A stretch of DNA of 64,000 nucleotides from Candidatus Brocadia sinica JPN1. GTDB taxonomy: Bacteria > Planctomycetota > Brocadiia > Brocadiales > Brocadiaceae. Shown in pieces: positions 192 to 63,995 of the stretch. Position numbers and translations under genes: made by a program. Below the pieces are notes generated by a model that saw nothing but the letters and a program-made list of their open reading frames with translations, was not told the DNA's origin and ran no database searches. The stretch spans positions 3,841,052-3,905,051 of the forward strand of contig NZ_BAFN01000001.1 in NCBI RefSeq assembly GCF_000949635.1, written 5' to 3'. The stretch's first letter is position 1, and the number at the start of each line of letters is the position of its first letter.

Positions 192-560
192 TTATTTGTG
201 GTTTTCCAGTCTTTTTGATATCTCAGCTAAAAGTTTTTCTTTATTAAACGGTTTTTCCAAAAATGAGACATTTCCTAACGCCTGAAAGCACCGGTACGTT
301 TTTTCATCAAGTGCTGAGGCCATAATAATAGGCACTTCTCTGTACCGGCTGTCTTTTCTCAGCATCGCAAAAACTCTGTCACCGGTAATCCCTTCCATCA
401 AAATATCCAGGATTATCAAATCATATTTTTTTTCCTTCGTTTTTTTCAACCCCTCATCCGCATTTGAAGCAAGGGTAACGGCAAATTGTTCCCCTTGCAA
501 CATGTCCTGATAAAATTCCTGCATTTCCAGGTCGTCTTCCATGATTAATAACTCTTTCAT
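192..560 (-). CDS. Single-domain response regulator receiver protein
   Basis: This 122-residue protein is a stand-alone CheY-like receiver with no output domain. The acidic pocket is E8-D9-D10, the phospho-acceptor is D52 in LIILDI, the switch hydroxyl is S82 and the conserved lysine is K103 in the EKPF motif, so it should be phosphorylatable. It lies 137 bases downstream of the GAF-PAS histidine kinase on the same strand and is the obvious partner, presumably passing phosphate on or binding a protein target. A good ribosome site (AGGAG-like, in TTGGAGAAGA) precedes the start. Confidence 0.88.
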   Translation of the reverse strand: MKELLIMEDDLEMQEFYQDMLQGEQFAVTLASNADEGLKKTKEKKYDLIILDILMEGITGDRVFAMLRKDSRYREVPIIMASALDEKTYRCFQALGNVSFLEKPFNKEKLLAEISKRLENHK

Positions 561-4279: not shown

Positions 4280-4660
4280 ATGAAAAAAATTTTGGAAAAA
4301 TACCTACGATGCCATTCTCGTCTCAAATTTCTTACATAGTTTTAGCCCTGAAAACAACAAAAAAATACCCAAGAAATGCTGGGACGCTTTAAAAAATGAA
4401 GGTCAATTATAATCCATGATTTTGTACTGGATGAGACCAAAACGCATCCCCAGTTTGCAGCCCTCTTTAACCTCAATATGCTTATTGACACAGAGGAAGG
4501 CGCATCATACAGTGAGCAGGAATATAGGGCATGGCTTGAGGGCACGGGTTTTAAGCAGATGAAAAAGATTGATCTGGAGTCTAATTTGATGTTTCATCTG
4601 AAAAAGCCAGAGAAAGCGTTCTTAATCTCATTCATGAGCTTATTCAAGAGAAATTGGTAA
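4280..4660 (+). pseudogene. Decayed SAM-dependent methyltransferase (C-terminal part)
   Basis: In-frame pieces read as the C-terminal part of an O-methyltransferase-type class I enzyme. From about 4295 one frame gives NTYDAILVSNFLH, then the helix KKCWDALKNEGQL. A one-base shift near 4407 is needed to continue as IIIHDFVLDETK, and on through NMLIDTEEG and YRAWLEGTGF to 4660. The SAM-binding N-terminal half is missing. A ribosome site (AAGGAG) and ATG at 4280 remain but lead into a frame that stops after 19 codons. The gene is inactivated by both deletion and frameshift. Confidence 0.7.
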
Positions 4661-4669
4661 AGGTTGCTG

Positions 4670-4876
4670 ATGGATAATCAGGCAGGGATGGTAAAGAAAT
4701 TCAGGGCTAATTTTGACTTCTTCGAAGAGATTTGGCTTTTTATCCAAATTTTCCTTTTGGCTACCGTGTTACCGTGTTACCCTTCCTGCTCAAGTTCCAG
4801 TCCCTGCCCGGGGTTATGAAAATGCTTGCATCCCTACAAAAATATTTTTATTATGAAAAATATGGGGCAAAAGAAA
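4670..4876 (+). pseudogene. Small gene debris, including a copy of the nitroreductase tail
   Basis: An ATG at 4670 opens a 49-codon frame (MDNQAGMVKKFRANFDFFEE then hydrophobic) with no family I recognise. Overlapping it, the DNA at 4850-4871 repeats about 20 bases of the nitroreductase 3' end at 3889-3910, encoding YYEKYGA in both. An FPFGY stretch upstream is reminiscent of the LPIGYP motif. The simplest reading is the remains of a second, decayed nitroreductase copy, but the middle is too degraded to be sure. Confidence 0.35.
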
Positions 4877-4878
4877 GG

Positions 4879-6942
4879 CTAACCATATTCAATACTTATG
4901 AAAGATTTTTTTTGTGGTTTTAAGGGCAACGTAAAGGTGAAGGTACTCCCTTTTCCATACTCACTCTTTGCCCAGATCTTTCCCCCGTGTAATTCGACCA
5001 GGCGTTTAGTAAGTATCAAACCAAGGCCTGTTCCTTCGTATCGGCGTGCATATGATCCATCTACTTGACGAAACGCCTCAAATAATTTGTTCATATCATC
5101 GGATTTAATGCCAATGCCCGTGTCACTTACGGCAATCTGGACATGCTGGTTTGAAAGCCTTGCATTGATTGTTATTCTGCCGTTCTCAGGAGTAAACTTG
5201 ACGGCATTGGATAACAGATTAAACATGATCTGTTTAAATTTTACTTTATCCGCCATCAGAGAAGGTATGTCCTCATGGACGTGGGTGCGTATGCTAATGC
5301 CTTTCTTATGAGAAGATCCCATGATCGTGTTCAATACCTCATTGATGGCATTTTCTACAGAAAACTCTTCGTACTGGAGTTCAAACTTCCCGGCCTCAAT
5401 CTTTGAAAGATCAAGGATACTGTTAATCATGCTGAGCAGGTGCTGTCCGCTGCTATGGATATCACCTACGTATTCTTTTTGCTCGGTATTGAGGGCGCCG
5501 GTTATTTCGTCTCTCAAAACCTCTGCAAAACCAATGATGGCATTCAGGGGGGTGCGAAGTTCGTGAGACATTGTCGCCAAAAACTCTGATTTCAGTCTAT
5601 TGGCCTTTTCGAGTGCAATATTTGCCTTCTGAAGCTCCTCTGTTCTTTCCTCAACCCTTTTTTCCAGGAGGACGTTCAGGTCTTGAAGTCTTGTAATACG
5701 CATAAAATCAAGCCATGAAGCCACGTCTTCATATTCGGCAACATTAAGTCCTCTCTTTTCTTCCTCCGGACTTACGCGAATACCTGCGATCTTCTTAAGG
5801 CACCAGAAAAAGAGCATTCCCAGTCCAAATGACCATAGAAAGGCTACGCCTGCTCCCACCGCCTGGATACCGAGCTGGTGCAATCGGTTGCCGTCTACTG
5901 CCAGGAGAGTTGATTTTTCAGCAAAGACCGCAACGCAGAGGGTGCCAATAACACCGCCTACTCCGTGAACTGCAATGGCTGCGACAGGGTCATCAACCTT
6001 TAATACCTTTTCTATAAAGTCCTGGGCCAGGATTGACACGATACCGGCAATTGAACCAATATAGATTGCGCCATCCGGCCCTACTCTGTTTGATCCTGCC
6101 GTTATAGCCACCAGACCAGCCAGTATGGCTGTAAAGAGTTTTCCGGCGTTCAGCTTCCTTTCCACCGAGTAATTCAGTATTAGCGCTGAAACTCCGGAGG
6201 CAGCCGGGGCCAGGTTCGTATTGGTAATGACAAGGCCAATATCAGCGCTAGCCCTCAGAAGGCTCCCGCCATTAAAGCCAAACCAACCAAACCAAAGGAA
6301 AAAAGTGCCCAGTGTAGCCAGGGGGATGTTATGCAGTCCCATTCGGTTTGAAGAACCATCCGGGTTATACTTGCCAATTCTTGGACCCACAGCCACAGCC
6401 CCTGCCAGGGCAAACCATCCCCCAATCGAATGTACCACGGTAGAGCCTGCAAAATCAATAAACCCCAATTTCCCCAGCCAGCCGGACTGTCCGGGACAAA
6501 AGAGATTCCCCCATGTCCAATGGCCGAAAACCGGATAGATAATGCCCGTCACAAATACGACGCCTACGACATTAGAAATAAAATTCGAACGCTCTGCTAT
6601 GGCGCCAGTTAATATGGTAGAGGCAGTAGCGGCAAAGACCAGTTGGAAAAAGAAAAAGCTGAAGGCCAGATTACCCTGATGTGCCATTACTCCCCTCGCA
6701 AAGAAATGATCTGATCCAATCCAGCCCCCATAGCTTTTGCCAAACATCAATCCAAATCCAACGGTATAAAACATCAGAGAAGCTATGACGGTAACCATCA
6801 GGTTTCTGATAGAAACGCTAATGGCATTCTTGGATTGCGCAAAGCCTGCTTCATAGGAGGTAAAGCCGAGCTGCATGAAGAATACCATGCATGCCGCTGC
6901 CATAAGCCAGATGTGATTGATGTTTATTTGAATGCTTTCCAT
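4879..6942 (-). CDS. Ammonium transporter-histidine kinase fusion (Amt5-type ammonium sensor)
   Basis: Residues 1 to about 405 are an Amt/Mep/Rh ammonium channel. The two pore histidines are present (H171 in STVVHSIGG and H326 in AVAVHG-like context), as are the FNGGS segment and about eleven membrane helices. After a short coiled linker rich in Glu and Lys come HisKA (SHELRTPLN, phospho-acceptor H460) and an ATPase domain ([21 protein letters not shown]). This matches the Ks-Amt5 class of ammonium sensor kinases. I chose the ATG at 6942; a GTG at 6951 in the same frame has a GGAG too close. No receiver is adjacent, so its partner is unknown. The PLD-like/PilZ gene ends 32 bases upstream and is probably cotranscribed. 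Confidence 0.92.
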
Positions 6943-6974: not shown

Positions 6975-8384
6975 TTAGCCGGAAGAAACGGTTAATACAC
7001 TGTCAATTTGATTCTGTTCATGATATTTCTCGTTTTCAGAAATTGCCTGCAATCCAATGATCGGTTGATGTCCATCTCCTATTCGCTTGACTACAAATTT
7101 TTTTATCTTCAGGAAATGATCTAGTATGAAATTGGCCGCCAACGGTTCCGGTGGAGGTGTGCCTTGTAAAATGACGATTTGTCCTTCGCTCAGTGGAAAA
7201 GTACCTTCTATTTTTAAAGAGATGCCTTCGCGGGAATAATCATTTATGGTTGCATCTGCAGTAGTTTTACAGTTCTCCAGATAAACGTTCAGCGACGGCT
7301 GCTTCCATTCCCAAGGTTGACGAGGAAATTTTCGGTCAATTGTATAGTGTACAGTCTCCCTTGACGCATGAAGTGTCTCGTACACATGTTGAAACCACGA
7401 AAGATGAGAACTGAATATATCGTTAATGAGCCGATTACGGTCTGCTATTCTAGCCTCGATGTGAAACATATCCACGTTGGATGTCAGCCACAATTTCCGG
7501 AAATGGTCTTCGAGTATCTCAAAAGGTTTCCCGGTCGTCTGCATCTGAAATTTGAATACCGGCATGTTGGCGCCAACACTCAGATTCAATGAATGCTGGC
7601 TTGCGCCTCGCCCAAATGTATATGGTTGAAAATGGGCTATGTTATCTACAATCATCATCCAGCAGGCTGGATTATGCGCATAAAATCTGACCACAGGTGT
7701 GACATTTGAATAGTTTCGAAGCCTGTCAAAGGTATGGGTAAAGTCACTGTACAATCGCTGATGGAAGAAGGGGTCTGTTGGCTGTATCCTTGATCTATCG
7801 ATATTCAGAATCTTTTCAACCTCATGGGGAGCGCTTTCGAGCAATGTTCTAAAGACCGCTGTATCCCGAAATACGTCAAGCAGAAGTATTTTAACATCAA
7901 GCCCGCTCGCAATCTTTTTGTTAAGCGTAGAAAGCAATTCGTCGAGATGAACATTCTCTGAGAACGTGACACCGAGAAGCCATACCCGGTTTTCAGCGTT
8001 TTCTATAGCATCATAGATATCACCCTTCACATCTTTACGGGAATAATAGATATTTGTTAGCCCGCAGGTTGCTGCCGCACAAATGAGCCGGTTGGAGGTT
8101 TGTAAAAATTTTTCCAAAGAACTGCGGTTATTATCAATGAGCTGATGGGTGGCTTGAAGTGTTTCTTTTAAGATGCTTCTTATATGTCCAAAAATTTCCC
8201 ACCACAGGTATGCATACTCCAGGATATGAACACACATTATTGCGCTGAAGATGAGAAGTAAATGCTTAACGATTTCAGGTATACTGTGCCAATAACGCGG
8301 CAATAAAATGTTGAGGGTAACTGCGGCAAGAAAAAAGAAGCCTGCGATTAACATTCGAACAAATGGTCTTGGTCTTTCATTCAT
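6975..8384 (-). CDS. Membrane-anchored PLD-like protein with C-terminal PilZ-like domain
   Basis: The frame extends to 8549, but GGAGG eight bases before the ATG at 8384 fixes the start, giving 469 residues. Two membrane helices (about 10-29 and 38-60) are followed by a coiled segment. A middle region resembles the phospholipase D fold (AENRVWLLGVTFSEN and GLDVKILLLD), but I see no clean HxK motif. Near the C-terminus, DYSREGISLKIEG resembles the PilZ core, which binds cyclic di-GMP in many proteins. It sits directly upstream of the Amt-kinase. A role at the membrane in the same signalling pathway is inference. Confidence 0.6.
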   Translation of the reverse strand: MNERPRPFVRMLIAGFFFLAAVTLNILLPRYWHSIPEIVKHLLLIFSAIMCVHILEYAYLWWEIFGHIRSILKETLQATHQLIDNNRSSLEKFLQTSNRLICAAATCGLTNIYYSRKDVKGDIYDAIENAENRVWLLGVTFSENVHLDELLSTLNKKIASGLDVKILLLDVFRDTAVFRTLLESAPHEVEKILNIDRSRIQPTDPFFHQRLYSDFTHTFDRLRNYSNVTPVVRFYAHNPACWMMIVDNIAHFQPYTFGRGASQHSLNLSVGANMPVFKFQMQTTGKPFEILEDHFRKLWLTSNVDMFHIEARIADRNRLINDIFSSHLSWFQHVYETLHASRETVHYTIDRKFPRQPWEWKQPSLNVYLENCKTTADATINDYSREGISLKIEGTFPLSEGQIVILQGTPPPEPLAANFILDHFLKIKKFVVKRIGDGHQPIIGLQAISENEKYHEQNQIDSVLTVSSG

Positions 8385-62720: not shown

Positions 62721-63995
62721 TCATAATACCAAAAAATCCGCAGATTTTGCAGATTTTAAGGATGCATTAAACTCATATTCGCAGACCCTGTTTCCACCTA
62801 GCTTTTTTGCCTTATACATTGCTTCATCTGCATTAACAAGCAATGCCTTCGCATTATTATAAGGACCAAGTTCAGCGATACCAATGCTTATTGTCTTTTG
62901 AATCGTTTTATTCTCCAGAGGGACTCGGAATTTAATATTCCTGAAATCGTTGAGTATCCGATTGGCAATGGTAATGGCGCTCCGGTTTGTGGTTTCCGGC
63001 AATATTATGGTAAACTCTTCCCCACCGTATCGGCATGGTATATCGATTCCCTTCCTGATTTGTTCTGTTACTAAATTTCCCAGGCGTTGTAATACTTTGT
63101 CGCCGGCAGCGTGCCCATATGTATCGTTAAAGTGCTTGAATTTGTCAATATCGATAAACAACAGGCTTATATTATGTTGATGGCGCCTTGCCCTCAGTAC
63201 CTCTTTTTCTAAAATATCATCAAAATACCTTCTATTGTACAAACCTGTCAGTTTGTCCGTAATCGATAACCTTTCAAGTTCATCCTGAAGTTGTTTCCTT
63301 TCTGTAATGTCTCTGAGGATTTCCAACTTGGAAATATGCATATCTCCATTTACAAAAGGCACAATAATAGAATCGTAAACCTTTCCCTGAATAGTCCTTT
63401 CCATTTTTACTGTCTGCCCCTTCAGTGTTTCCTTTATCCCACATTGATGACAGAGGGTTCCCCGGTTACATATTGCATCGTAACAATACCTTCCTACTGC
63501 ATACCCGTATTCGTTCGAAGCCGCATTGTTCATATACTCGATTTTGTTTTCTTTATTCATTATAAAAATCATATCCTTTGTGTTTGAAAGGATGGTGTCA
63601 AAAAATTCCTTTTGCTCTTTAATGGTTTTATATGTTTGAGCAAGTTTCCTGTTCGACGTATTCAATTTTAAAGATATCGTATTAAAGGCATTGAAAAGTT
63701 CTTCTATTTCGGCAGATGATTTTGTCCTGAGTATTATATCGTATGACCCATTGGCAATTTTTTTTGTTGCAGCGCTCAATAAATTCAACGGCTTTGTTAC
63801 GTACCTTGTTATACGATATGCATAAACAATGCAAAAAATGACTGCTATTGCCACAACGATATACGTAGAAAGCCAGCAGTTTTTTTCTACTTTTTTTGAA
63901 TAAGCAACAGCCTGCTTATATGCCAAAGTAATCGTTTCATCGAAGACTGCTAACACTTTAGTAAGCCTGGATACGCCTGTTTCATACGTTTTCAT
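62721..63995 (-). CDS. Membrane diguanylate cyclase (HAMP-PAS-GGDEF), 5' end probably outside
   Basis: At least 424 residues. A membrane helix (TYIVVAIAVIFCIVYAY) near residue 45 is followed by a HAMP domain, a coiled region, and a PAS domain with several Cys (CYDAICNRGTLCHQCG). The GGDEF domain has DKLTGLYNRRYFDD and the active-site RYGGEEF. The inhibitory site R-x-x-D is replaced by KGID, so product feedback may be weak. The frame reaches the window edge, so the true start may lie outside. Confidence 0.88.
   Translation of the reverse strand: MKTYETGVSRLTKVLAVFDETITLAYKQAVAYSKKVEKNCWLSTYIVVAIAVIFCIVYAYRITRYVTKPLNLLSAATKKIANGSYDIILRTKSSAEIEELFNAFNTISLKLNTSNRKLAQTYKTIKEQKEFFDTILSNTKDMIFIMNKENKIEYMNNAASNEYGYAVGRYCYDAICNRGTLCHQCGIKETLKGQTVKMERTIQGKVYDSIIVPFVNGDMHISKLEILRDITERKQLQDELERLSITDKLTGLYNRRYFDDILEKEVLRARRHQHNISLLFIDIDKFKHFNDTYGHAAGDKVLQRLGNLVTEQIRKGIDIPCRYGGEEFTIILPETTNRSAITIANRILNDFRNIKFRVPLENKTIQKTISIGIAELGPYNNAKALLVNADEAMYKAKKLGGNRVCEYEFNASLKSAKSADFLVL

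Follow-up and report, generated by a model that had tools for sequence, protein, structure and literature searches.

The window analysed here, a stretch of 64,000 nucleotides (C1:3841052-3905051 of a 4.08 Mb genome in 3 contigs, G000), contains a gene in which the C-terminus of an ammonium transporter (Amt) domain is fused to a HisKA-HATPase_c histidine kinase (Amt-HK), and a co-directional upstream gene whose product combines a phospholipase D (PLD)-like fold with a PilZ-like tail (PLD-PilZ; Table 1). According to Pfam, Amt-HK possesses neither a HAMP nor a PAS domain, and its three domains all score far above threshold. The PLD-PilZ frame begins with an ATG at 8384, with GGAGG ahead of it, and its stop codon lies 32 bp before the ATG of Amt-HK. 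The observation of the earlier note, i.e., an Amt domain fused to a kinase with a coupled upstream gene, is thus confirmed. We do not regard the arrangement as a product of chance, because the domain E-values are below 1e-23 and the gene order is kept across genera. The start methionine of Amt-HK is identical across orthologs. An ordinary transporter with an accidental frame into a kinase was rejected, given the single open frame and the presence of the same fusion family-wide. The pore histidines (H171/H326) and the phospho-acceptor (H460) are intact, just as the earlier note had read them, and the selectivity filter (W144/S227) and the Phe gate (F103/F223) are kept as well. Among the six Amt-family loci of G000, only this one carries a kinase fusion. 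Between a nitroreductase gene and Amt-HK, window positions 4280-4690(+) hold what appears to be a decayed coding sequence with no frame of at least 90 aa.

Table 1. Coordinates of the genes, domains and residues of the Amt-HK/PLD-PilZ locus (window positions).
Feature	Position	Strand	Basis or remark
Amt-histidine kinase (Amt-HK), ortholog of Ks-Amt5	4879..6942	-	ATG at 6942; 687 aa
Ammonium transporter domain, residues 11-408	5719..6912	-	Pfam PF00909 Ammonium_transp, E 8e-111; gapless to 6EU6
Glu31 codon, remaining acidic ligand, invariant in all orthologs	6850..6852	-	Ortholog alignment
Residue 50 codon, Val; Asp in Ks-Amt5 (acidic ligand of ammonium site)	6793..6795	-	Ligand list PMC5764959
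HisKA dimerisation/phospho-acceptor domain, residues 451-518	5389..5592	-	Pfam PF00512, E 1.5e-24
Phospho-acceptor His460 codon	5563-5565	-	Inside HisKA
HATPase_c catalytic domain, residues 565-675	4918..5250	-	Pfam PF02518, E 3e-32
PLD-PilZ gene: two N-terminal membrane helices, PLD-fold domain, PilZ-fold tail	6975..8384	-	469 aa
PLD-like domain, ~residues 109-300, catalytically dead by sequence	7485..8060	-	Fold search; no HxKxxxxD
PilZ-like tail, residues 345-450	7035..7352	-	Model and fold search
RKFPR, RxxxR motif of PilZ	7320..7334	-	
DYSREG, DxSxxG motif of PilZ	7224..7241	-	

Relation of Amt-HK to Ks-Amt5

The best solved relative of Amt-HK is the Amt domain of Ks-Amt5 from Candidatus Kuenenia stuttgartiensis (kuste3690/KSMBR1_3866, PDB 6EU6; Pfluger et al., 2018, PMC5764959). 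A phmmer comparison aligned the two with an E-value of 9e-195 and no gaps over residues 1-403, so that the residue numbering of Ks-Amt5 applies to Amt-HK. Identity with the K. stuttgartiensis protein amounts to 73% in the Amt domain and 69% in the kinase. Of 33 Brocadiaceae genomes, 29 contain an Amt-HK at 70-100% identity, mostly in full length; one of these (G031) is taken as K. stuttgartiensis because its Amt-HK is practically identical to 6EU6, and it falls in the same tree clade as the window protein. Phylogeny supports the ortholog status, and the two proteins also share their architecture and all pore, gate and phospho-acceptor residues. These comparisons make the window Amt-HK the Ks-Amt5 ortholog of Brocadiaceae, an ammonium transporter that has been repurposed. 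In a second anammox family, L153:5008-7053(+) (G045:C4) encodes an Amt-HK 83% identical to that of the window with no PLD-PilZ gene beside it, reflecting either horizontal transfer or bin contamination.

Purified Ks-Amt5 binds ammonium without translocating it efficiently, and its autophosphorylation is ammonium-dependent in the full-length form only (PMC5764959). The sensor is hence already known in kind, the central claim having been published for this ortholog. The label of ammonium channel used in the earlier note needs correcting, since the closest studied protein binds ammonium rather than efficiently translocating it. The pore histidines are not the evidence that counts, because unfused transporters carry them too; it is the orthology to the experimentally studied Ks-Amt5 that supports an ammonium-responsive sensor kinase.

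Ks-Amt5 holds two ammonium ions via Q24, E31, N47, D50, T51, T109 and T112 (PMC5764959). Six of these seven ligands are kept in the window protein, whereas D50 is replaced by V. At position 50, the orthologs of the window's own genus and some others have V, those of several genera have E (together with F51 and S112), and further ones have L or I; the sole orthologs to keep D50 are those of K. stuttgartiensis, of G029 and G035, and of the sister family. The pore-blocking residues F27, Y30 and F34 are all conserved. Comparison with 66 unfused Amts, a sample gathered by similarity and biased towards the subfamily of the query, revealed E31 in 62 and D50 in 54 of them, which shows that a sensor is not recognised by most of the ligand residues alone. 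Since D50 varies inside the orthologous group, its change leaves the orthology untouched, but binding identical to that of Ks-Amt5 is not to be assumed. The case for ammonium sensing in Brocadia rests on orthology and E31 rather than on an intact published site; with Val at position 50, the affinity for ammonium or the stoichiometry may differ. The ammonium-gated sensor that the earlier note had called firm accordingly holds as a sensor kinase orthologous to Ks-Amt5, with the change at D50 as a caveat.

The upstream PLD-PilZ gene and its pairing with Amt-HK

The full-length PLD-PilZ model was of moderate confidence (pTM 0.47). A fold search with the predicted model matched the middle domain to TrmB/TrmBL2, PLD and PssA, in line with the fold of the PLD superfamily and the TrmB sugar-binding domain. 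A motif search in 23 sequences of the family found no catalytic HxKxxxxD in the window protein; the single regex match among them (HMKSIFTD in G048) covers residues 67-74, outside the PLD-fold domain. In lacking the HKD motif, PLD-PilZ differs from the PLD superfamily and resembles non-enzymatic TrmB-type domains, and an enzymatic phospholipase was rejected on this ground. Modelled alone, the PilZ tail reached a pTM of 0.69, and its 23 best PDB fold matches were all PilZ structures. A profile search of the tail against PDB sequences gave no match, so that fold comparison alone worked; likewise, the tail misses the Pfam PilZ cut-off (E 0.11 for the whole protein and 0.008 for the tail alone; 16.9 vs 22.5 bits gathering score). 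The tail thus shares the fold and both cyclic di-GMP motifs with the PilZ domains of BcsA, VCA0042 and YcgR, but unlike them it scores below the Pfam cut-off and is attached to a membrane protein with a dead PLD fold. The PLD-like fold and PilZ-like tail proposed in the earlier note are borne out by the fold search on the predicted model. In G035, an FAD-dependent oxidoreductase of 601 aa (L143:1498-3303(-)) carries the same PilZ tail, and neither of the two motifs is damaged in it. A tail-less homolog of this oxidoreductase (68% identical) is encoded directly after the PLD-PilZ gene in G045 (L152:6652-8046(+)). The tail looks like a movable module.

Scored over the 29 Brocadiaceae genomes with Amt-HK, the PLD-PilZ gene is intact and adjacent in 14, always co-directional and separated by 9-91 bp. 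Another 2 genomes have an adjacent copy that breaks off ahead of the PilZ tail, 3 have a remnant directly upstream, and 8 lack the gene; the remaining 2 were left unscored due to contig ends. K. stuttgartiensis is among the genomes with a remnant, a scrap of ~50 codons ending 24 bp before Ks-Amt5, where the window has an intact gene. Outside Brocadiaceae, 5 genomes contain PLD-PilZ, all of them from the second anammox family (f4). In three second-family genomes it opens a co-directional row of genes for PLD-PilZ, a DUF2231 protein, a receiver, an Amt-HisKA_2 kinase and another receiver, with an extra small ORF between the DUF2231 gene and the receiver at L147. As in the window, an Amt-kinase fusion lies beside the same PLD-PilZ gene, but its Amt belongs to a clade distant from that of Amt-HK in our tree, its kinase is of another class and receivers flank it on both sides. 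A survey of 392 genomes of the phylum yielded PLD-PilZ family members in the two anammox families only, plasmids yielded no relatives, and literature searches found neither the gene nor an ammonium sensor paired with it described. The pairing is therefore genuine and of ancient origin, and it is restricted to anammox bacteria as far as sampled, but it can be dispensed with: PLD-PilZ is not essential for Amt-HK because it is absent in 8 genomes that keep the latter. The coupling of the two genes stated in the earlier note holds, and the notion that homologues never keep them together is refuted by the 14 intact pairs, next to which stand the truncated and remnant copies and the analogous arrangement in the second family.

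Candidate partner receivers

The response regulator of Ks-Amt5 has been described as still to be identified (PMC12918730). As the earlier note pointed out, no receiver adjoins Amt-HK; the only receiver domain of the window (219-548; gene 192-560) is located 4.3 kb away, directly after its own GAF-PAS kinase (698-2308), a pairing that is kept in L188 and L191. The sister family, whose Amt-HK belongs to the same Amt clade as that of the window, has a single-domain receiver encoded within a few bases after Amt-HK in each of its two genomes, G001 and G002. When searched against G000, the G001 receiver matches C1:1593077-1593445 best (L157:6078-6449; 5.5e-34, next match 5.2e-21). The best matches of the latter are in turn the receivers beside Amt-HK, both in G002 (2.2e-46 vs 6e-30) and in G001 (1.2e-33 vs 8.4e-26). 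The C1:1593077 receiver, which is situated 2.25 Mb from Amt-HK and conserved at 80-95% in nearly all Brocadiaceae, is apparently orthologous to the sister-family receiver adjacent to Amt-HK, and the partner is probably not the receiver of the window.

The C1:1593077 receiver adjoins a kinase with the domain order Tll0287-HAMP-HisKA-HATPase-REC-REC. Its kinase domain and that of Amt-HK share ~63% identity, and from the phospho-His onwards the two proteins agree in each of the first 13 residues. The simplest reading would have a single receiver serving several paralogous kinases. The H-box sequence is too common to prove receiver specificity. According to the kinase tree, the Amt-HK of the sister family groups with the receiver-side kinase and not with the Brocadiaceae Amt-HK (92/97), a split that long outgroup branches keep from being firm; because of it, receiver preference may have shifted. 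Just behind the C1:1593077 cluster, a short GGDEF fragment (C1:1594874-1595068, ~L157:7875-8069) may be a decayed diguanylate cyclase gene. The kinase domain closest to that of Amt-HK in its own genome (78% identical) belongs to a 540-aa kinase devoid of Amt (L156:5161-6783(-)).

Amt-kinase fusions are also encoded by Firmicutes/Fusobacteria (L008, L009, L012, L017 and L018), being of the HisKA_3 type as tested in L008. Like Amt-HK they join an Amt sensor to a kinase; in contrast to it, a gene for a receiver protein of 212-214 aa follows directly downstream, a second Amt gene comes after it in 4 of the 5 loci, and there is no PLD-PilZ gene. These loci appear to be self-contained ammonium-responsive operons, and by analogy they suggest Amt gene expression as one natural output of such sensors.

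Possible working of the system and alternative readings

We consider it somewhat probable that the locus encodes a Ks-Amt5-type sensor kinase which works with the distant free receiver C1:1593077-1593445 and with a co-transcribed accessory modulator, PLD-PilZ. By analogy with Ks-Amt5, ammonium would bind to the Amt membrane domain and the signal would pass to the fused histidine kinase, whose phosphate would presumably be handed to the free single-domain receiver, also served by related kinases. PLD-PilZ, probably transcribed together with Amt-HK, would act as a membrane-anchored accessory, its dead PLD-fold domain and PilZ tail sensing or binding something (plausibly cyclic di-GMP) and modulating the same response. 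Such an accessory would be ancestral in anammox bacteria, yet dispensable, with K. stuttgartiensis retaining a scrap only.

The loss of D50 could also mean that the Brocadia protein conducts as a transporter does, or reacts to another signal, and is not an ammonium sensor of the Ks-Amt5 kind. The V, E, I or L found at this position in most Brocadiaceae would fit such a view, as would the fact that Q24, E31, N47 and T109 are not confined to sensors; however, E31 and the F27, Y30 and F34 said to block the Ks-Amt5 pore are conserved, and 4 of 5 Amt-HisKA_3-type fusions from other phyla pair Y30 with a non-acidic residue 50, which makes this alternative improbable. Still less credible, indeed very improbable, is a partnership of Amt-HK with the window receiver. 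Although it is the sole receiver in the window and, with its kinase, stays near Amt-HK in some relatives (L188, L191), it is paired with a GAF-PAS kinase in those same loci, and its counterparts there are only 22-25% similar to the G001 receiver beside Amt-HK; it was rejected as the leading candidate on account of its own kinase. As for PLD-PilZ, it is conceivable, but rather unlikely, that it is an unrelated passenger kept beside Amt-HK by inherited gene order. Synteny across the family extends to further neighbours (genes of the PEP-CTERM-like, PDZ/TPR lipoprotein, U32-type peptidase, nitroreductase and macrodomain types, some of these names being based on the sequence only), and PLD-PilZ has been cleanly lost in several genomes. 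Against this speak the short co-directional gaps and, in the other anammox family, the presence of PLD-PilZ beside an Amt kinase that is phylogenetically distant.

A direct link between ammonium and cyclic di-GMP, in which the tail binds the nucleotide and PLD-PilZ gates the kinase or carries its output, strikes us as doubtful in this strict form. The tail has the predicted PilZ fold, both RxxxR and [D/N]xSxxG are kept in 13 of the 19 full-length copies, that of the window included, and one relative has the tail with intact motifs fused to an oxidoreductase. G000 itself has 17 GGDEF matches (16 full-length and one fragment) and 9 PilZ matches above the cut-off, numbers from which cyclic di-GMP signalling is likely in this organism. 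In the remaining copies, however, the motifs are damaged (DxSxxG broken in G018, G019, G021 and G028, RxxxR lost in G026-G028), two relatives have the PLD part beside Amt-HK without the PilZ tail (adjacency being unproven in a third tail-less case), the tail is the fastest-evolving part of the protein (in G026, 48% vs 73% identity), and no cyclase or phosphodiesterase is found within the pair. The link suggested by the earlier note hence gains from the tail fold, the motifs and the 16 GGDEF domains, and loses by the decay of the motifs in several relatives and of the whole gene in at least 8 genomes. For a PilZ tail that decays repeatedly, a connection of the pair to cyclic di-GMP is plausible, but unproven, and the earlier interpretation as a whole is partly supported. 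At the far end of the window, positions 62787-63263(-) encode a GGDEF domain inside a 570-aa open frame.

New with respect to the published sensor are a lineage-restricted conserved partner gene lost in the model species, the finding that D50 is not conserved, and a receiver singled out as a specific candidate. The comparison names one concrete candidate for the missing response regulator of Ks-Amt5, and the sister-family operon with adjacent sensor and receiver offers a natural positive control. We put forward only tentatively that an Amt kinase (HisKA or HisKA_2), a PLD-PilZ co-regulator bringing in the cyclic di-GMP status and a free receiver serving multiple kinases formed an ancestral anammox unit, from which the co-regulator was lost in K. 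stuttgartiensis; if true, the published K. stuttgartiensis model would show only a part of the system. The model species is without a gene which in most of its close relatives is still present, or has left visible traces, beside the sensor, and an acidic residue to which ammonium binding was ascribed varies among them. Both the loss of PLD-PilZ and the change at D50 bear on how anammox bacteria, which matter in wastewater treatment and for the nitrogen cycle, keep track of their main substrate.
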